Source of the DNA: a virus
Length of the DNA stretch: 24,852 nt
Reading direction: 5' to 3' (one strand)
Virus record (IMG/VR): IMGVR_UViG_3300044796_000046
Location: 1 to 24,852 of that record
The number at the start of each line of letters is the position of its first letter. Within the stretch, counting starts at the first letter, position 1. A program made the position numbers and the translations under genes. A model generated the notes under the pieces. The model saw only the letters and a program-made list of their open reading frames with translations, made no database searches and had not been told where the DNA came from. This document shows positions 336-24,852 of this stretch, piece after piece.

Positions 336-367
336 GGGGGCTCCTCTGATACATGTGTATCAGTCAT
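332..367 (-). CDS. Candidate 11-aa coupled leader ORF (MTDTHVSEEPP)
   Basis: The ATG at 367..365 overlaps the TGA of the 333-aa gene (ATGA), and its own TGA overlaps the ATG of the Gly-rich gene (ATGA). An AAGAGG SD-like stretch lies about 7 nt upstream. The dyad at 346-363 is read through as DTHVS. It could be a leader peptide passing ribosomes from the 333-aa gene to the Gly-rich gene. It could also be only a by-product of the dyad, the SD and two overlapping codons. Without conservation data this stays a candidate. Confidence 0.35.
346..363. repeat. Dyad repeat copy 1, CTGATAC-ATGT-GTATCAG
   Basis: Seven-bp perfect arms around a 4-nt centre. It ends 10 nt before the ATG of the Gly-rich gene on the minus strand, with that gene's AGGAG in between. 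One of seven copies, all in the leftward block. Confidence 0.8.
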
Positions 368-1365
368 TTTAGTACCTCTTTGTCTTTGTTTATATTCAGC
401 CCATCTATTAACCCCTTAAATGCCACACTACGTTCTGATACAAATGTATCAGCTTCCTGCCGTACGGGTTCTAGCGCCGCCCATTTCTTTTTCCTGCCAC
501 GTTTCTTTTTCATTCCCATGACTTTCATATCTGCCGGCCACCCCGCAAGAATCGCGTTATTTCTGCCCGCGCTTATCCTGCTAGATATGGCACGCTTGGC
601 AAGGGCTGCATCCTGCTTAGTTTTAGTGGCTGTTATGTCTGCATCCTGTTGTGCTGCCAGTGCCTTCTCAGCTTGCGTTAAGGGTGCTCTCTGCACCACA
701 TCAGATGGCTCCAGCACAAACCTAGGCAGTTTCTTTTTAACGAGCGTGAGCTCTTTATACGTGGCGCGGGCTGTGTCCACGGCATTTATGCTTACAAGCG
801 CCAGCCATTCATCGATTGGCACAAACACGCCACTACGCAGGCTTTCTGACCAGTTCCTAAATAATCCCGCAGTAGCTCTCAGGCTGTTATATGCCCCCGT
901 CTTGCGCGTTAGTTCCAGAGACATTTCAACTTTAAGGATAGTATCCCACACTGTGTTTAAGTACAGGTTAACAGCGGGTTCATTCCATTGGGAGTTCTTA
1001 GTACTCACATACCGCTTCACTACTCGCAAGTCAGTGAGAGCTTTCTTTAAGCGTTTATCCCATTGCTTAGCCCACATTTCCCTAGTGTTTAGTGTCGCCT
1101 TTTCCTTTAATACCACTCTTGATAGGTCGAGGCGAGCTTTATTTCCCGCAGTTTTATCTGCTAAATAAATATTTAATGCTTGGTTTGGGGTTATCCCGCG
1201 TGTTGGTTTACGTCCGCAGGTGTTGCAAACCGGGTTTTCTTTGTATTCTAATTTGCGTACGCGCTCTTTGTTTTTATTAATAACAACATGAAAAACATTG
1301 CGCATAAAGCGCACTCGAGGCTTTTCTTCGCCACATACTGAGCATATCTTCTTGATTTCACTCAT
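364..1365 (-). CDS. Hypothetical protein with N-terminal zinc-finger-like Cys pairs and basic AT-hook-like stretch, 333 aa
   Basis: The start chosen is MSEIKK (1365), 8 nt after TAGGAG; a longer in-frame start at 1383 lacks an SD. C8-x2-C11 and C47-x2-C50 could together bind one zinc. The middle is Lys/Arg-rich and mainly helical. Residues about 225-285 are Ala/Gln/Lys-rich. Residues 286-294 (KKKRGRKKK) resemble an AT-hook or a nucleic-acid-binding basic patch. The dyad at 435-452 is read in frame as ADTFVS (about residues 305-310). The TGA overlaps the next start (ATGA). The Cys pairs plus basic patch suggest nucleic-acid binding; this is inference and no family is recognised. A possible promoter lies at 1426-1454. 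Confidence 0.8.
   Translation of the reverse strand: MSEIKKICSVCGEEKPRVRFMRNVFHVVINKNKERVRKLEYKENPVCNTCGRKPTRGITPNQALNIYLADKTAGNKARLDLSRVVLKEKATLNTREMWAKQWDKRLKKALTDLRVVKRYVSTKNSQWNEPAVNLYLNTVWDTILKVEMSLELTRKTGAYNSLRATAGLFRNWSESLRSGVFVPIDEWLALVSINAVDTARATYKELTLVKKKLPRFVLEPSDVVQRAPLTQAEKALAAQQDADITATKTKQDAALAKRAISSRISAGRNNAILAGWPADMKVMGMKKKRGRKKKWAALEPVRQEADTFVSERSVAFKGLIDGLNINKDKEVLK
435..452. repeat. Dyad repeat copy 2, CTGATAC-AAAT-GTATCAG
   Basis: This is the only copy clearly inside a longer coding sequence, the 3' end of the 333-aa gene. It is 67 nt before the next candidate start at 367. Confidence 0.8.
843..858. repeat. 16-nt dispersed repeat, matches 2345-2360
   Basis: TTTCTGACCAGTTCCT occurs identically here (inside the 333-aa gene, coding RNWSE) and at 2345-2360. 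Its core GACCAGTTCCT recurs at about 2796-2806, where it provides the SD of a small gene. It may be a scrap of the duplicated module described for the 33-bp repeat loci. Confidence 0.5.
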
Positions 1366-1425
1366 TGTTTTCTCTCCTAACATAAAATAATTTGGCTGCT
1401 TGGTTGTGATGTGCCCTAGACATGC

Positions 1426-1454
1426 ACTTTACAGAGTTTGATAGAAGAAAGCAA
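1426..1454 (-). promoter_or_regulatory. Possible sigma70-like promoter for the 333-aa gene (leftward)
   Basis: On the minus strand TTGCTT (1454-1449) is followed after 17 nt by TAAAGT (1431-1426). This places a start site about 50 nt before the gene's SD. Match to consensus is moderate and the region is AT-rich, so chance is a real alternative. Confidence 0.35.
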
Positions 1455-1457
1455 CCT

Positions 1458-1486
1458 TTGAATTGAGGACTATCTTCACCTATAAA
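1458..1486 (+). promoter_or_regulatory. Possible sigma70-like promoter (rightward), divergent from the previous one
   Basis: TTGAAT (1458-1463), a 17-nt spacer, then TATAAA (1481-1486). The predicted start is near 1493 and runs into a gene-free interval that ends in a terminator-like hairpin at 1829-1864. Confidence 0.35.
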
Positions 1487-1569
1487 AAAAACTTCACCCC
1501 CACGGCATATGCCCTACTGGCGGGTTTTAACAGGCACATAGCCCTTATTACCTACACGTTTTAGAATTT

Positions 1570-1591
1570 TATATACATATATATGTATATA
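1570..1591. repeat. 22-bp perfect A/T-rich palindrome
   Basis: Two 11-nt arms (TATATACATAT and its complement) abut with no spacer, inside an A/T-dominated 120-bp stretch. Candidate cruciform, protein-binding site or DNA-unwinding element. Confidence 0.7.
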
Positions 1592-1828
1592 GTGTGTGTT
1601 TATTATTTATTGTTTTAGAAAGAAAGAAAAAAAGTTAGTTAGTATATATATATAAATTTCTAATACTAGTATATATATAGGGCCATGCTTGGCTAATGCT
1701 TAATAGGCATGCGGGTTTGCGGGGGGCTGGTGATGATAATAATGTGCTAGATGCCACCCAACTGTCCACATGAAAAAAAACGTATCTCGACCAAAACCTT
1801 GGTAAAACCCTAGGCATGCGGGTCTTGG

Positions 1829-1864
1829 GGGTGCACGGGCCTAGAGCCTCGATGCACCCTTTTT
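1829..1864 (+). terminator. Rightward rho-independent terminator-like hairpin with no gene before it
   Basis: GGGTGCA (1829-1835) pairs with TGCACCC (1853-1859). The loop can pair further (GGC/GCC), and TTTTT follows at 1860-1864. On the minus strand no T run follows the stem, so it would act on rightward transcripts. All neighbouring genes run leftward. Confidence 0.5.
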
Positions 1865-1881
1865 GTAACGCTTTGATACAT

Positions 1882-2178
1882 TTATGCTCTTACGTCACCT
1901 GCTCTACGGAAAGCGTCGGCAAGCGGTGTTGGCTTATGTTGCTTGGCTTCCATTTTGTTTGCCGCGTCCAGTAGGTCTAGCTCTATGGCCCAGTACAGCG
2001 ATTGGGTTATGAGGTCTGTGGCGGACAGGCGTGCGGTCTGTGCTACTTCGGCGGCAACGCGTAAATGCTTGCGGTGTTCGTAGGGATGGTCAAGCATGGG
2101 TAGGATTACGGAGAGGTCTTCTTTTAAGTGTGCTGGAAGGCCTTTGTTTTCTTTGATGAATTTGATTGTGTTGTTCAT
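1882..2178 (-). CDS. Hypothetical protein, 98 aa
   Basis: Starts MNNTIKFIKENKG with AAGGAG 7 nt upstream. Dyad copy 3 lies 36 nt before the start. The sequence is predominantly helical and mixed-charge, with His-containing basic stretches, and has no Cys motif, membrane segment or recognisable enzyme motif. It lies downstream of the 33-bp repeat locus in the leftward block and is followed by the gene-free interval. Coding is supported by SD, length and normal composition. No family recognised. Confidence 0.75.
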   Translation of the reverse strand: MNNTIKFIKENKGLPAHLKEDLSVILPMLDHPYEHRKHLRVAAEVAQTARLSATDLITQSLYWAIELDLLDAANKMEAKQHKPTPLADAFRRAGDVRA

Positions 2179-2202
2179 GATGTTGCTCCTTGTTGTCGTT
2201 GA

Positions 2203-2388
2203 TTAAGTCGTTGGCTGATACATTTGTATCAGCTTTGTTTCACTTTCCAAACACCCTTGCTCACGCCGGTGTTCACTTTCCAAACACCCTTGCTCACGCC
2301 GGTGTTCACTTTCCAAACACCCTTGCTCACGCCGGTGTTCATATTTTCTGACCAGTTCCTTGGTTCCTGATACAAATGTATCAGCCAT
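2203..2388 (-). CDS. Candidate small protein made of three 11-residue repeats (EHRREQGCLES)
   Basis: Reads MADTFVSGTKELV, then three EHRREQGCLES units encoded by the 33-bp tandem repeat, then a tail through dyad copy 3. The same peptide frame is used in the better-supported gene at 2622-2795, which favours this frame. There is no good SD before the ATG, which sits at the edge of dyad copy 4. A competing ORF in another frame (2229-2342, 37 aa, starting MNTGVSKGVWKV) has AAGGAA 13 nt upstream and its ATG 24 nt after the dyad. One or neither may be translated; the region could be a decayed copy of the 2622-2837 module. Confidence 0.3.
   Translation of the reverse strand: MADTFVSGTKELVRKYEHRREQGCLESEHRREQGCLESEHRREQGCLESETKLIQMYQPTT
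2215..2232. repeat. Dyad repeat copy 3, CTGATAC-ATTT-GTATCAG
   Basis: Perfect 7-bp arms. Located 36 nt upstream of the 98-aa gene (1882-2178) on the minus strand. Confidence 0.85.
2241..2341. repeat. 33-bp tandem repeat, three identical copies
   Basis: Copies start at 2241, 2274 and 2307 with a strict 33-bp period and no visible divergence. The unit runs from CACTTTCCAAAC to CGCCGGTGTT. The period is a multiple of three, so every frame stays open across it. The same unit recurs at 2731-2787. Absence of variation between copies indicates recent expansion or active homogenisation. Confidence 0.95.
2345..2360. repeat. 16-nt dispersed repeat, second copy
   Basis: Identical to 843-858. It lies between dyad copy 4 and the 33-bp repeats. 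On the minus strand it holds AAGGAACTGGTC, the same SD-plus-spacer used at 2796-2806. Confidence 0.5.
2367..2384. repeat. Dyad repeat copy 4, CTGATAC-AAAT-GTATCAG
   Basis: Perfect arms. It stands 24 nt before an ATG at 2342 on the minus strand, the same distance as copy 5 from its gene, which supports duplication of a whole dyad-SD-repeat module. Confidence 0.85.
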
Positions 2389-2436
2389 GCTCGGGATAGA
2401 ATCCCGCCGGCGGTGCGTAGAGCGTCCTTGGCGCTG

Positions 2437-2619
2437 TTAGTGGGGTTGAATGAATGGATGGATACGTTTGCGCTTGTAGACGGGCACAGGCGCGATTGTG
2501 GTGGGTTTGAAGGCGGCTTCAGCTTCAGCCAGGTATGGCGAGCGGAAGGGATGGTGGTGCGGTGCAGCATGAAGATTTGTTTCAAGTGTCCAGTATTTTG
2601 TGTATGGCTTGGTGTTCAT
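2437..2619 (-). CDS. Hypothetical basic protein, 60 aa
   Basis: Starts MNTKPYTKYW with AGAGGA about 8 nt upstream; that SD overlaps the stop of the preceding gene (2622-2795), an operon-style junction. The protein is rich in His, Pro, Lys and Arg (AAPHHHPF, then VYKRKRIHPF) and has no Cys or membrane segment. An ORF on the opposite strand covers the same DNA but lacks a comparable start signal. Function unknown; the basic C-terminal half could contact nucleic acid, which is a guess. Confidence 0.6.
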   Translation of the reverse strand: MNTKPYTKYWTLETNLHAAPHHHPFRSPYLAEAEAAFKPTTIAPVPVYKRKRIHPFIQPH

Positions 2620-2621
2620 GG

Positions 2622-2795
2622 TTAAAATCCTCTGATTAGTGCATCGATTGTTAGGGCGATTAAGCCCACGATTGAGATTGTCCAGACTAGCTTGTCACCT
2701 ATGCTGTACGGTTCGTTTGGTTCATTTCTGAACCCTTGCTCACGCCGGTGTTCACTTTCCAAACACCCTTGCTCACGCCGGTGTTCATTTCCCAT
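2622..2795 (-). CDS. Small single-pass membrane protein with 11-residue repeats, 57 aa
   Basis: The start MGNEHRREQG was chosen because AAGGAA lies 6 nt before it; a longer upstream extension would read through dyad copy 5. Residues 4-21 are 1.7 units of the EHRREQGCLES repeat. A linker rich in Asn, Glu and Pro follows, then a hydrophobic helix (about residues 36-53, KLVWTISIVGLIALTIDALI) ending in RGF. The layout is a charged repetitive N-terminal segment on a C-terminal anchor. Its stop overlaps the SD of the next gene. Small anchored phage proteins often act on host membranes or exclusion, but nothing specific is shown here. Confidence 0.65.
   Translation of the reverse strand: MGNEHRREQGCLESEHRREQGFRNEPNEPYSIGDKLVWTISIVGLIALTIDALIRGF
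2731..2787. repeat. 33-bp repeat, second locus (about 1.7 copies)
   Basis: One full and one 5'-truncated copy of the unit found at 2241-2341. Both loci lie immediately downstream (minus sense) of a dyad and an AAGGAACTGGTC box. Confidence 0.9.
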
Positions 2796-2808
2796 GACCA
2801 GTTCCTTA

Positions 2809-3009
2809 TTAACGTTGGGCTGATACATTTGTATCAGCCGTATTGCAGACAGATTCCCGCGCAATCAATCGTTTACCTAGGGCTTGGTTGCCTGTTGGTA
2901 TGAATTGAGGCGCATCTAGGCAGTAGTCTTTGACGCCTGTTTCCTGCCCGTAATCTGGGCGTATTCCCTTTTCTTTGTATCCTTGCCGGATGTAGTTAGG
3001 TCTATACAC
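2809..3009 (-). CDS. Hypothetical protein, 66 aa, GTG start
   Basis: The GTG at 3009..3007 has GGAGG about 4 nt upstream, and it overlaps the end of the preceding gene (GTGTATAG), so the two are probably coupled. The protein begins (M)YRPNYIRQGYKEKG, contains two Cys and is basic. It ends ADTNVSAQR, where ADTNVS is encoded by dyad copy 5. No domain recognised. Confidence 0.6.
   Translation of the reverse strand: MYRPNYIRQGYKEKGIRPDYGQETGVKDYCLDAPQFIPTGNQALGKRLIARESVCNTADTNVSAQR
2820..2837. repeat. Dyad repeat copy 5, CTGATAC-ATTT-GTATCAG
   Basis: Perfect arms, 24 nt upstream of the membrane-protein start at 2795. It also forms the last codons of the 66-aa gene. Confidence 0.85.
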
Positions 3010-3181
3010 GAAGCCTCCATTTAGGTTGTTGAGATTGGATGTGCTGGTTTATTGTCGTGGGTACTGTGATTGTGCCCATCAGCCCCATTATTTCAGAGCG
3101 CACAGATTGGAGCGCCGTACTAAGCGCGGTTTCTTTGTCTTTCAGGGCAGTGTATTTATCCCAATTAGTTAGGTTGCTCAT
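3002..3181 (-). CDS. Hypothetical protein, 59 aa
   Basis: Starts MSNLTNWDKYTALKD with a near-ideal GGAGGT 7 nt upstream, and dyad copy 6 is 21 nt before the ATG. An upstream in-frame ATG inside the dyad (MYQH...) was rejected because it would place the SD within the gene. The N-terminal 40 residues look helical with heptad-like hydrophobics, and the C-terminus is basic (QQPKWRLRV). Its stop overlaps the GTG start of the 66-aa gene. Confidence 0.7.
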   Translation of the reverse strand: MSNLTNWDKYTALKDKETALSTALQSVRSEIMGLMGTITVPTTINQHIQSQQPKWRLRV

Positions 3182-3202
3182 GGTAATCACCTCCAGGTTG
3201 TG

Positions 3203-3221
3203 CTGATACACGATGTATCAG
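3203..3221. repeat. Dyad repeat copy 6, 5-nt centre
   Basis: CTGATAC-ACGAT-GTATCAG. The arms are unchanged but the centre is one base longer than in copies 1-5. It is 21 nt before the start at 3181. Confidence 0.85.
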
Positions 3222-3251
3222 CGGTTTGTTAAGGTGTGACGCTTTGGTATT

Positions 3252-3340
3252 GTGATGGGGTTATGCTTAACTATAACTTTGAGGTTATGCTGTGCTGATG
3301 AGCCATAATTGTTGGGTTATAATTAGCTTCGCCCCATCAC
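3252..3340. repeat. Long-range inverted repeat GTGATGGGG / CCCCATCAC in an intergenic gap
   Basis: Nine-bp perfect arms at 3252-3260 and 3332-3340 enclose 71 nt with several GGTTAT-type words. The pair lies between the stop of the 141-aa gene and dyad copy 6, so it would be in the leftward transcript. It could be a structured leader or a processing element; no T run follows either arm. Confidence 0.4.
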
Positions 3341-3362
3341 GCTGCCGAGTAACGCTGTAAAA

Positions 3363-3788
3363 CTATTTCCAGTCACGCAGGAACTTAGCTTTTTCGGCTT
3401 TACTCATACCAAGATTATTCACGTACTTAAGCGCCAGTGCCACTTTGTCTTTTTCTACCTGCGTAGCATTGCTACTCTTACCTTCTAGCGGCTTAGCGAT
3501 GATCCGGCGCCACTGTTGATACGCAGATATGTCACGCAATTTAGAATCATACTTGTCAGGACTGCCTTTCCAAAACCGGGGGGTAATTGTTGTACTATCG
3601 GCAAACTCTGCATAGCACTCGTATTGGGCTTTGAAGTCTTCTACCCAAACGAGTAGACAATCACGACCTACAGTTTTACCCGCAATATTGCTATCCCAAT
3701 GGTTATCCCCTTCTTCAGAGCTACTTAACATTTTCCGTAAAAAAGGCGAAAAAGCTTTAGCTTCTTTAACTGATAGTGCTTTTTTCAT
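3363..3788 (-). CDS. Hypothetical protein, 141 aa, first gene of the leftward block
   Basis: The start MKKALSVKEAKAF was chosen for the TAGGGG-type SD upstream and because dyad copy 7 lies 23 nt before it; a longer in-frame start at 3836 would run through the dyad. The protein has an acidic N-terminal half with Trp-containing segments (HWDSN, VWVEDF) and a Lys-rich helical C-terminal half ending KFLRDWK. There are two Cys without pairing, and no signal peptide. As the promoter-proximal gene of the leftward set it may be made early. No family recognised. Confidence 0.75.
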   Translation of the reverse strand: MKKALSVKEAKAFSPFLRKMLSSSEEGDNHWDSNIAGKTVGRDCLLVWVEDFKAQYECYAEFADSTTITPRFWKGSPDKYDSKLRDISAYQQWRRIIAKPLEGKSSNATQVEKDKVALALKYVNNLGMSKAEKAKFLRDWK

Positions 3789-3811
3789 GATATAAACCCC
3801 TAAGTAAATTA

Positions 3812-3830
3812 CTGATACATGATGTATCAG
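3812..3830. repeat. Dyad repeat copy 7, 5-nt centre
   Basis: CTGATAC-ATGAT-GTATCAG, 23 nt before the 141-aa gene. This is the outermost copy; beyond it, to the right, no full dyad occurs in the window. Confidence 0.85.
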
Positions 3831-4222: not shown

Positions 4223-4891
4223 ATGTTTGAAGACCTGGTATCTGGTGCTATTGAGGCGGGGGCGTTCATCCCGGAGATACTGTCTTCGCCAAAAACAGGC
4301 TTCACAGCAAGCCAAAAAGTTTCCGCTTCAGATGAACTGGATGCTAAGTTCCGCACTGCGCAATGGATAAAAGAGCTAGGTGGCAGCACCGAAGAAGAAG
4401 CCCTGGAAGAAATCCGGCAACGTGAAATGATAGAAATACACCACGAAGTAGGCGATGCCTTTGCAGCCTTTACCTCCCCTGAAGCTACAGAGCAAAGCAA
4501 AAAAAATGCCGTAGCCACCTTGAAGACCCCCGCCGTGGTGCGAGAATTGGTGGGCATGCTCACTGCATACAACTGGGCCTTCGTAGAACAAGCCCAGGAA
4601 ATCAGAAGCTACCTTGTATCAGAGCTATTAAGTGAGGTTAAAGACAATAAAGATGCCAAAATACGCTTAAAGTCCATAGAACTACTCGGAAAGGTTACAG
4701 AAATTGGCTTATTTACCGAAAACATCAAGGTAGAGAAGAAAAACATGTCCGATATAGAGCTGGATGAAGAGTTAAAGCAGCGTTTAGCTCAATATGCGTC
4801 GTTTTCCAGAGCCCCAGAAGTGGTGGATGGGGAAATAATCCCCCAAATACCAGAAATTATTGTAGAAACAGAGCTAAAAGATGCTGAATAA
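4223..4891 (+). CDS. terS: Terminase small subunit (probable), 222 aa
   Basis: It would recognise the packaging site and hand DNA to the large subunit. Assignment rests on position (it overlaps the terminase large gene by 11 nt) and on a helical, acidic protein carrying the pattern LLGKVTEIGLFTEN (about residues 154-167) followed by an acidic/Lys-rich tail, as seen in podovirus-type small terminases. The start is uncertain: the ATG at 4223 has no SD, and a TAA lies five codons before it in frame, so no longer form exists. Translation may depend on the strong SD at 4164-4171. Confidence 0.7.
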   Translation: MFEDLVSGAIEAGAFIPEILSSPKTGFTASQKVSASDELDAKFRTAQWIKELGGSTEEEALEEIRQREMIEIHHEVGDAFAAFTSPEATEQSKKNAVATLKTPAVVRELVGMLTAYNWAFVEQAQEIRSYLVSELLSEVKDNKDAKIRLKSIELLGKVTEIGLFTENIKVEKKNMSDIELDEELKQRLAQYASFSRAPEVVDGEIIPQIPEIIVETELKDAE

Positions 4892-7364
4892 TGCTCAGAT
4901 TGACGATATTGTCTCAGGTAAAATTCCACTATCAGCCCTTAGCAGCGCTGAAAAACAACGTATTATTGACCTTTTAGACGAAAAAACACAGCGTTTACAG
5001 GCAGATACAGCTAAAATTGACTTGATACAGTTTGCTCACGCAGTTTATCCGGGGTATTCTGTAGGTGCGCACCATAAGCGCATGGCTGAACTGTTCAAAG
5101 CCGTAGCGGACGGTACCAAAAAGCGCATAATCATTAACATAGCCCCACGTTTTGGTAAATCAGAACTAACATCGTATTTATTCCCTGCATGGTTCCTGGG
5201 CCAGAAGCCAGATGCTAAAATCATCATGGCAACCCATACTGCGTCCCTCTCCGAAGATTTTGGCCGGCGCGTACGGAATCTTATAACCACTCCTGAGTAC
5301 CAGCGCATATTCCCAGGCACGCAGTTGTCTGGCGATTCAAAGTCGGCCGGCGCATGGAACACCTCTGCTGGTGGTAAGTACTACGCCGTGGGTGTGGGGG
5401 GTGCGCTGGCTGGACGTGGTGCAGATTTATTGGTAATTGACGACCCCCACGCCCTTGAAGTTAGCACATTGGTGGCCACTACTCAGGGGTTTAAAACTGT
5501 ATCAGACTTGAAGGTTGGCGATTTTGTATTTGGCCCAGATGGTGTACCAACAGAGGTTCTTAGTAAGTCTATGGTTTGGGATGATAGGCCACTATATGAA
5601 GTTGCTACGAACGATGGGGAGATTATTAAGTGTGATGGTGGCCACCTGTGGAACTACCGTTCTGACACCAAACTTTTCGCACGTCACAAAAATAGCACTG
5701 CCAGGGACTTGGCTTACTGGGATAAAACTAGCCTACCGTGTATGCCACGGCACAAAGCCGTTGAGTACGCAGAACAGACACTCCCAATAGACCCCTACAT
5801 ATTAGGCGCATGGTTAGGAGACGGCACTTCTAGTTTGGGCAGAATGACTTCTCATCCAGACGATGCGGTGTTTATGCGGGGGCAGTTCATAGCTGCTGGA
5901 TACACGACTACAACACATAAAGACTTGTATTCTTTTGGGGTACTAGGGCTACGAGCTCAACTAACAGCCCTTAATGTGCTGAATAATAAGCACATACCAG
6001 AAGCATACTTGATAGGCAGTGTAGCCCAGCGTATAGCGCTTCTACAAGGGCTAATGGACACAGACGGCACCTGCACAGAAGCGGGGCAGTGCAGCTTTCA
6101 AAACACCAACCACACACTCGCACTAGGGTTTCGTGAGCTGCTACAAAGTTTAGGCGTGAAAGCAAGAATGTGTGTTTATGAAGATAAAAGGGGGCGGCAC
6201 GCATCTCGTAAACTAGACTATAGGATTAATTTTAAGCTTAAAGACTCTTTCAGAATGCCTAGAAAGAATACACGCACTTTCACCCCCACAGATAAGCAGT
6301 GCAGATCTTTTACTGTACGCATGCTGGAAGAAAAAGGGAGTGTGCAGTGTATAACGGTAGCTCGTAAAGACGGGTTGTTTCTAGTTGGCCGAGGGTATGT
6401 CGTAACGCATAACTCAGAACAAGATGCCAGATCGGGCACTAAGACAGTCTTTGATCAGGCGTGGATGTGGTATCAGACAGGCCCACGGCAGCGGTTAATG
6501 TGGGGTGGGGCCATTATTTTGGTTATGACCCGGTGGTCAGCCGTAGATTTAAGTGCCAGGCTGCTGGAGTACCAGGCCAAGAACCCTAACGCAGATCAGT
6601 GGGAAGTGATTGAGTTTCCCGCGATACTACCAAGCGGTAAAAGCCTGTGGCCTGAAAAGTGGCCAGTGGAAGAACTGCTCAAAACTAAAGCCACCCTGGA
6701 TGCCCAGTATTGGAATGCGCAGTATCAGCAACAGCCCACCTCCGAAGAAGCGGCGATAATTAAAAGGGAGATGTGGCGCGAATGGGCGTCGGACACGCCC
6801 CCGTTGTGTACGTTCATACTGCAGAGCTGGGATACAGCACATGAAACAAAAACCTCAGCTGACTTTTCAGCATGCACCACTTGGGGGTTGTTTATTAATG
6901 AAAATGAAGGTGATACCATGCACATTATCCTGCTGGACGCCTTCAAGGGCAGGTATGAGTTCCCTGAGCTAAAGAAGAAAGCCTATGAAGCATACAAGGA
7001 GTGGGAGCCGGATATTTGCATAATTGAAAAGAAAGCGGCGGGAGCTCCATTAATACAAGAGCTTAGACGTGCTGGCATACCAATTTCAGAGTATAGTCCT
7101 AGCAGGGGTAACGACAAGACTGTGCGGATTAACGCCGTGGCCGATGTGTTTGCATCAGGTAAGGTCTGGGCTCCAGCCAAACGGTGGGCTCGAGATGTCA
7201 TAGAAGAAATGGCGGCATACCCACAAGGCGAGCACGATGATCTGGCAGACACTACGACACAGGCAATACTGAGATTCAGGCAAGGGGGGTTTATCCCGCT
7301 GCCAGCAGATGAGAAAGATGAACCTAATTCATTCCGGTCAGTACGCCGGACACCTTACTACTAG
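4881..7364 (+). CDS. terL: Terminase large subunit with in-frame intein, 827 aa precursor
   Basis: ATP-driven DNA-packaging motor and nuclease. Exteins are residues 1-190 and 512-827, about 506 aa after splicing, which is normal for the family. A Walker A-like motif APRFGKSE lies at 88-95 and Walker B plus catalytic acidic residues LLVIDDPH at 183-190. The C-terminal nuclease shows SWDTAHETKTSADFSA, then DICIIEKKAAGAPL and the late HDDLADT, matching the acidic clusters of the RNase H-like fold. The intein (191-511) enters directly after DDPH, so an unspliced product should be inactive. The gene overlaps terS; the portal follows after 8 nt. Confidence 0.96.
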   Translation: MLNNAQIDDIVSGKIPLSALSSAEKQRIIDLLDEKTQRLQADTAKIDLIQFAHAVYPGYSVGAHHKRMAELFKAVADGTKKRIIINIAPRFGKSELTSYLFPAWFLGQKPDAKIIMATHTASLSEDFGRRVRNLITTPEYQRIFPGTQLSGDSKSAGAWNTSAGGKYYAVGVGGALAGRGADLLVIDDPHALEVSTLVATTQGFKTVSDLKVGDFVFGPDGVPTEVLSKSMVWDDRPLYEVATNDGEIIKCDGGHLWNYRSDTKLFARHKNSTARDLAYWDKTSLPCMPRHKAVEYAEQTLPIDPYILGAWLGDGTSSLGRMTSHPDDAVFMRGQFIAAGYTTTTHKDLYSFGVLGLRAQLTALNVLNNKHIPEAYLIGSVAQRIALLQGLMDTDGTCTEAGQCSFQNTNHTLALGFRELLQSLGVKARMCVYEDKRGRHASRKLDYRINFKLKDSFRMPRKNTRTFTPTDKQCRSFTVRMLEEKGSVQCITVARKDGLFLVGRGYVVTHNSEQDARSGTKTVFDQAWMWYQTGPRQRLMWGGAIILVMTRWSAVDLSARLLEYQAKNPNADQWEVIEFPAILPSGKSLWPEKWPVEELLKTKATLDAQYWNAQYQQQPTSEEAAIIKREMWREWASDTPPLCTFILQSWDTAHETKTSADFSACTTWGLFINENEGDTMHIILLDAFKGRYEFPELKKKAYEAYKEWEPDICIIEKKAAGAPLIQELRRAGIPISEYSPSRGNDKTVRINAVADVFASGKVWAPAKRWARDVIEEMAAYPQGEHDDLADTTTQAILRFRQGGFIPLPADEKDEPNSFRSVRRTPYY
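5451..6413 (+). mobile_element. Class 3 intein with LAGLIDADG homing endonuclease (321 aa, inside terL)
   Basis: Intein residue 1 is Ala (ALEVSTLV) in place of Cys or Ser, the start typical of class 3 inteins. The class-defining W-C-T set is present: Trp67 and His65 in block B (GGHLW), Cys300 in block F (VQCITV) and Thr319 in block G (VVTHN). The C-terminal His320-Asn321 and Ser+1 are intact. The endonuclease shows two LAGLIDADG-type motifs: LGAWLGDG (intein 118-125) and LLQGLMDTDG (about 197-206). In class 3 inteins the block F Cys makes the first branched intermediate, in contrast to residue 1 of ordinary inteins. All key residues are present, so both splicing and homing look functional. 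Confidence 0.95.
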
Positions 7365-24184: not shown

Positions 24185-24852
24185 ATGCCTTTCTTAAGCA
24201 CATTAGGCGCAGCATCCGCTAGAGGGTTCGGGATGCTTATATCTGCGGCGTCAAGACTCCATGCCATCGCAGTGGCTCATGACATCACCCCATGGGTATC
24301 CGCTTACCCTTGGTCGGGGAGCGGCTTTGGCACCAAGTTCACCAATCCCGGAACGCTACCTGCTAGCACCGGGTATGGTGTTGCGTTCACTGCGGCTGGT
24401 GATGCCATCGCAGTGGCTCATGACATCACCCCATGGGTATCCGCTTACCCTTGGTCGGGGAGCGGCTTTGGCACTAAGTTCACCGATCCCGGAACGCTGC
24501 CTACTAGCACCGGGCGTGGTGTTGCGTTCACTGCGGCTGGTGATGCCATCGCAGTGGCTCATGCCAACTCCCCATACGTATCAGCTTACCCTTGGTCGGG
24601 GAGCGGCTTTGGCACCAAGTTCACCAATCCCGGAACGCTACCTGCTAGCACCGGGTATGGTGTTGCGTTCACCGCGGCCGGTGATGCCATCGCAGTGGCT
24701 CATGCCACCTCCCCATACGTATCCGCTTACCCTTGGTCGGGGAGCGGCTTTGGCACCAAATTCACCAATCCCGGCACGCTACCTACTAGCACCGGGCGTG
24801 GTGTTGCGTTCACCGCGGCCGGTGATGCCATCGCAGTGGCTCATGCCAACTC
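24185..24852 (+). CDS. Tandem-repeat virion protein, propeller-like (partial, runs off right edge)
   Basis: ATG one base after the fibre stop: MPFLSTLGAASARGFGMLIS, an opening (LGAASARGFG) common to phage tail proteins. From about residue 26 it consists of 47-residue units, AIAVAH...PWVSAYPWSGSGFGTKF...NPGTLP...GVAFTAAGD, four full and a fifth begun at the edge. Blades of this length with periodic aromatic and Gly residues suggest a beta-propeller-type repeat fold. It probably is a receptor-binding or tail-tip protein; repeat number and C-terminus are unknown because the window ends. No SD, so translation is probably coupled to the fibre gene. Confidence 0.8.
   Translation, partial: MPFLSTLGAASARGFGMLISAASRLHAIAVAHDITPWVSAYPWSGSGFGTKFTNPGTLPASTGYGVAFTAAGDAIAVAHDITPWVSAYPWSGSGFGTKFTDPGTLPTSTGRGVAFTAAGDAIAVAHANSPYVSAYPWSGSGFGTKFTNPGTLPASTGYGVAFTAAGDAIAVAHATSPYVSAYPWSGSGFGTKFTNPGTLPTSTGRGVAFTAAGDAIAVAHAN
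24261..24852 (+). repeat. 141-bp tandem repeat, four full copies plus start of a fifth
   Basis: ATGCCATCGCAGTGGCTCAT begins at 24261, 24402, 24543, 24684 and 24825, a constant 141-bp period. The copies differ by only a few bases, mainly at the segment after GCTCAT (GACATCACC, GCCAACTCC or GCCACCTCC) and around GGGTATGG/GGGCGTGG. The array continues beyond the window. Confidence 0.97.

Follow-up and report, generated by a model that had tools for sequence, protein, structure and literature searches.

Two short loci on the minus strand of an IMG/VR virus record (locus 1, about 2229-2384; locus 2, 2622-2839) each carry a dyad, the box AAGGAACTGGTC and 33-bp repeats, which raises the question of whether they are copies of a self-contained module or parts of something wider. 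The whole stretch analyzed, hereafter the window, is a 24,852-base fragment read on one strand. Its structural genes (terminase with an intein, portal and capsid) lie to the right, and small leftward ORFs of no assigned function occupy 1-3.8 kb. Searches of the left-block proteins against Pfam and PHROGs gave no matches, and neither did Rfam and tRNA scans of the window. The large terminase (4881-7364) is split by an intein that carries a LAGLIDADG endonuclease domain, an insertion absent from most relatives examined. A 141-bp tandem repeat (4.2 copies, 24261-24852) reaches the contig end, and a CCCATA/CCCACA microsatellite at 1-340, just behind dyad 1, reads on the minus strand as a Gly-rich sequence (MKAKGNGDGDG...).

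A search of the window found seven copies of the dyad, CTGATACA-N2/3-TGTATCAG, with perfect arms in every copy; five have a 2-nt center and the other two a 3-nt center (Table 1). All seven were found inside the leftward gene block at 346-3830 (~3.5 kb), with zero in the remaining 21 kb; the chance expectations for the two spacings are 0.09 and 0.08 matches. For six of the seven copies an ATG follows 10-36 nt past the dyad, mostly with ribosome-binding-like sequence in between, and no box between dyad and ATG is conserved across the window copies. The dyad was also considered as a promoter -10 element, a reading that fails because GC-rich versions such as GGTTCAGCCTGAACC exist. An exact search of IMG/VR with the window dyad returned 35 stretches with one site apiece, which is consistent with chance.

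Table 1. Dyads, boxes, repeats and small leftward ORFs in the left part of the window
Feature	Position	Strand	Remarks
Dyad 1, CTGATACA-TG-TGTATCAG	346..363		ATG of leftward 88-aa ORF ~10 nt away
Dyad 2	435..452		within 3' end of leftward 339-aa ORF; without clear gene start behind
Dyad 3	2214..2233		~36 nt before ATG of 98-aa ORF; its TGA is also the stop of the 37-aa ORF
37-aa putative ORF	2229..2342	-	built of repeat (MNTGVSKGVWKV...)
33-bp tandem repeat, locus 1	2239..2341	-	3.1 identical copies; unit of eleven codons
Box AAGGAACTGGTC, locus 1	2350..2361	-	AAGGA rather distant from ATG for a ribosome-binding site
Dyad 4 (locus 1)	2367..2384		24 nt before an ATG
57-aa ORF	2622..2795	-	N-terminus repeat-encoded; C-terminal segment hydrophobic (judged by eye)
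33-bp repeat, locus 2	2731..2790	-	about 1.7 copies
Box AAGGAACTGGTC, locus 2	2796..2807	-	SD-like AAGGA, well placed before ATG at 2795
Dyad 5 (locus 2)	2818..2839		24 nt before an ATG
Dyad 6	3202..3222		3-nt center; ~21 nt before ATG of 59-aa ORF with good SD
141-aa ORF	3363..3788	-	first leftward gene, adjoins terminase genes; positional candidate for dyad-binding regulator
Dyad 7	3812..3830		3-nt center; 23 nt before ATG of 141-aa ORF

The order of dyad, box and repeat described in the initial annotation was confirmed on the minus strand at both loci. An equal dyad-to-ATG distance had also been claimed, and each dyad does lie 24 nt from an ATG, but the gap between dyad and box measures 5 nt at the first locus and 12 nt at the second. 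The dyad/box arrangement is therefore not rigid, and with this 7-nt difference the equal distance rests on two different, nonhomologous ATGs; the homologous ATG (ATGAACACC) lies 24 nt from the dyad at locus 1 and 31 nt at locus 2. Box and repeats align without gaps between the loci (93% over 76 nt), and both frames across them stay open at each locus (KELV...EHRREQGCLES and RNWS...MNTGVSKGVWKV). The frame linking dyad and repeat differs between loci, as had been stated, but box and repeats lie in the same frames, so the similarity there could reflect a single coding frame. Such a frame could not explain the shared dyad, and the proposal that a duplicated DNA arrangement keeps its dyad as nucleic acid rather than as protein was supported.

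The exact box AAGGAACTGGTC is present at these two loci only. The 23-nt repeat core occurs in five copies compared with 0 in 100 shuffles, and an exact search of IMG/VR for the 33-bp repeat gave no match. Its identical copies suggest recent expansion, in line with the original proposal, with assembly error as the alternative. The repeat keeps the reading frame and is probably a minisatellite in small ORFs, outside the regulatory device. The copying of the two-locus module is a local duplication of a type also met in relatives, with duplicated dyad-plus-leader pieces in L071, L051, L133 and G001. Sixteen identical bases, AGGAACTGGTCAGAAA, were also noted in the 339-aa ORF (about 843-858, minus strand) and in locus 1 (2346-2360, minus strand), in the same frame (RNWSE) at both places and with a score above all 60 shuffles, a comparison made only after the match had been noticed. 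Because this sequence recurs in-frame in the 339-aa ORF, the box may be a copied piece of coding sequence rather than a dedicated ribosome-binding box.

Relatives were gathered by portal and terminase searches of IMG/VR, GTDB genomes and named phages and were scanned blindly for repeated perfect dyads. Dyad families were found at 17 of 101 loci, then at 13 of 156 further loci, and in none of the shuffled sequences. When only loci extending 3 kb or more to the left of the terminase were counted, a phage-specific perfect dyad with at least three copies was present in 26 of 81 left arms compared with 0 of 70 structural arms and 0 in 243 shuffles. The 81 include a few records that overlap and come from the same phage (e.g. 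L076/L270), so independent families are slightly fewer, and the strict rule misses some carriers (L242 and L095 fall below its threshold). The word differs between most phages, with both halves changing together and symmetry kept. Words with a 3-nt center include TGAGACA-N3, ACCCTGA-N3, GGTTCA-N3, CAGACA-N3 and TTTCGTA-N3; further arms are TGATACA, TGGGACA, ACCCTCA, CTAACA, TCTGACA, CGTATTA and others, and many arms end in CA beside the center. Arms are common to L072/L081, to G001/L164 and to L084/L085/L294/L095, and center length varies by one base within the window and a few relatives (e.g. L095). A self-contained dyad-SD-repeat module, as in the initial annotation, is not supported by these results: the dyad is found phage-wide before most leftward genes, and the dyads of relatives differ in sequence and come without the 33-bp repeat.

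On the 67-kb contig G001, TTCGTAC-N-GTACGAA occurs 16 times, and 15 of these copies fall within the leftward early arm, at 5.5-14 kb. Pag-Yong1 (L057, OL906435), an isolated phage of Planktothrix, carries GGTTCA-N3-TGAACC; scored against the deposited annotation, 12 of its 16 best sites lie no more than 60 nt before annotated starts, compared with 10% of random positions, and the distances peak at 20-29 nt. Rightward structural genes of this phage are preceded by three of the sites, at 9-12 nt, which ties the association there to gene starts and not to one strand. The Pag-Yong1 record names Planktothrix as source, and the genome has a G+C content of 0.69, which is high for this genus; the host assignment may merit checking.

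A MoxR-DUF3150-VWA gene set was found together with dyads in G001, G002, G004 (three dyad copies only, AT-rich), G005 and Pag-Yong1, the last having no MoxR match in the gene-set comparison and an ATPase annotated there in its record. Neither dyads nor the gene set were found in the sequence examined of G003, DSL-LC04, HTVC027P, CRP-902 and GB2A, and shared ancestry may explain the co-occurrence. The fraction of leftward genes was discarded as a correlate of dyads, as arms with and without them overlapped when a crude gene caller was used. Integrase (Phage_integrase) had no match in the genomes of seven relatives, which leaves immunity of the lysogenic kind without support.

At the DNA level, a reading of the dyads as operators is well supported by the sequence patterns: carrier genomes hold many perfect copies, mainly in the leftward non-structural arm and usually just before gene starts, the halves co-vary between phages, and the flank pattern is typical of dimer half-sites. 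With a probability of about 0.6, the dyads would be operators in double-stranded DNA, recognized by a dimeric regulator of leftward genes that the phage itself encodes, in a stoperator-like layout and presumably acting in repression. One regulator per phage would bind all its dyads and turn down or stagger leftward transcription, either by covering the transcription start or by blocking polymerase within the operon as stoperators do, and regulator and dyads would co-evolve to give most phages a private word. At the two loci, a piece with dyad, box and repeats would have been copied nearby, after which the 33-bp array would have changed copy number. Several observations count against operators: no sigma-70-like promoter was seen near the dyads, 55 of 81 left arms lack a family by the strict rule, and a one-base variation in the center is unusual for a rigid dimer.

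The strongest case for RNA, or for a flexible dimer, comes from those alternating center lengths, as a loop is free to vary in length in the way seen in the window and L095. The dyads could be intercistronic stem-loops in leftward mRNA, where they would bind a translational regulator or serve to protect or process the message, and they often lie between stop codon and SD; we nevertheless consider this unlikely. Folding of leader RNAs does yield the dyad stem (z about -1.3 to -3.6), but any perfect DNA dyad folds as RNA, so these scores prove little. Symmetric conserved bases were found outside the often-unpaired positions in L072, L081, L133, L051, Pag-Yong1, L263 and L288, giving half-site patterns such as AACT-N-RCAGACA (L072, L081), A-N-CGTAGTG (L133) and T-NN-GGTTCA (Pag-Yong1). 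They fit two protein subunits, since a stem has no reason to keep them. G-U accounted for 12 of 30 one-mismatch dyad copies, not clearly above the share expected if transitions dominate. Flank symmetry and the lack of a clear G-U preference favor protein dimers on DNA over RNA hairpins, and the location of some Pag-Yong1 sites within coding sequence counts against both readings. Two leaders behind dyads in L071 (3690-3766 and 4630-4702) have ~45 nt in common with paired changes in the stem (TGATCTG/CAGATCA vs CAGTCTG/CAGGCTG), possibly a real RNA hairpin.

Local duplication at the two loci and at the dyads of relatives, like the indels between dyads in cluster O phages (PMC4351075), would suit recombination boundaries, with dyads as short shared gene-edge sequences that promote exchange or duplication of small gene cassettes. 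As any repeat would recombine, and perfect symmetry and the joint change of halves are left unexplained, this is distinctly improbable. Host transcription factor sites, for which differing hosts could account for the differing words, are a poorer explanation still, given the number and perfection of copies within one genome arm and the fact that each contig with the window dyad among other IMG/VR records has just one site. The least probable reading is that of centromere- or origin-like sites to which a replication or partition protein would bind; the repetition of one dyad within part of the genome would agree with it, but the dyads are spread before gene starts rather than clustered, and no ParB-family gene (ParB_N) was matched in the seven genomes.

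For the operator reading, position offers a lead to the binding protein, as the first leftward gene, which adjoins the small terminase, is a candidate regulator. This gene is common to phages with the same arms (L127/L164 and L072/L081), and a related gene is found in L084/L085/L294; the others, including the window (3363-3788), have an ORF of roughly 125-280 aa there. Across the group, sequence similarity of the first-leftward proteins is very weak. The candidate shows no recognized domain, its AlphaFold model from the window is poor (pLDDT 56), and the moderate model from the L294 group (pLDDT 77), helical in its N-terminal part and ending in a pair of helices after a disordered linker, had no fold match among solved structures, all of which weigh against the operator model. 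Pfam and PHROGs searches of 103 left-arm proteins of relatives returned MoxR/VWA/DUF3150 and HNH types and no clear shared regulator. Two other binders were set aside: a family with a winged-helix-like fold, judged from sequence (G001, G002, G004 and L068), was not found in dyad-bearing G005 and Pag-Yong1, and HTH_3 proteins were found in G001 and G004 only.

The closest precedents are the dyads of cluster O and the stoperators of cluster A. Cluster O mycobacteriophages (Corndog and relatives) carry 34 near-invariant copies of the 17-bp dyad TGTTCGG-N3-CCGAACA, about a third of them inside genes and the intergenic ones mostly in the leftward arm; their function is unknown, and a dimeric protein was suggested (PMC4351075). 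They share with the dyads here the many perfect copies per genome and, in several cases, the 7-3-7 layout, repeated many times in L045, L046, L051, L072, L081 and others, whereas the window mixes 2- and 3-bp centers. The cluster O arms occur in none of the dyad families found, and those unrelated siphovirus-type mycobacteriophages use one word cluster-wide, whereas in the present terminase-defined group most phages have their own. Cluster A stoperators are 13-bp, asymmetric, monomer-bound sites of temperate phages, mostly in one orientation and in many copies genome-wide, with a consensus that shifts between relatives together with the immunity repressor, which binds them and halts transcription (PMC6550527, PMC9283540). 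Many copies with a phage-specific consensus are found here too, but all sites are dyads rather than asymmetric 13-bp sites, and the prophage-maintenance genes of a temperate phage (integrase or parABS) are not indicated, as seven relatives gave no Phage_integrase or ParB_N match. The extended start-associated sequences (ESAS) of cluster K mycobacteriophages are inverted repeats just before non-structural gene starts, with imperfect 17-bp arms, a spacer of mostly 4-13 bp and a subcluster-specific consensus; they accompany an asymmetric 13-bp SAS located at the start codon (PMC3203893). They resemble the present dyads in placement and in a word that varies between relatives, but here no 13-bp SAS and no conserved dyad-to-ATG box were found.

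No description of the dyads in this phage group was found in the open-access literature searched. The ordered duplication is real and, as far as was searched, opens onto a wider, undescribed feature of the group, whose sequence suggests rapidly evolving binding sites for a regulator protein of the phage. More tentatively, and with considerable doubt, a large group of podovirus-like phages may share one modular regulatory device, in which most early genes are preceded by a symmetric operator. Almost every lineage would have changed the word along with an unrecognized dimeric regulator encoded beside the terminase genes, and a flexible linker in that regulator might accommodate the differing center lengths. 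Tests are practical, since Pag-Yong1, an isolate that carries the feature, is publicly available as a record. Some 25 operator words in one phage group would form a natural series suited to studies of regulator and site co-change, and the dyads would offer a quick route to early operons, and possibly to exclusion or immunity groups, in uncultured phages.
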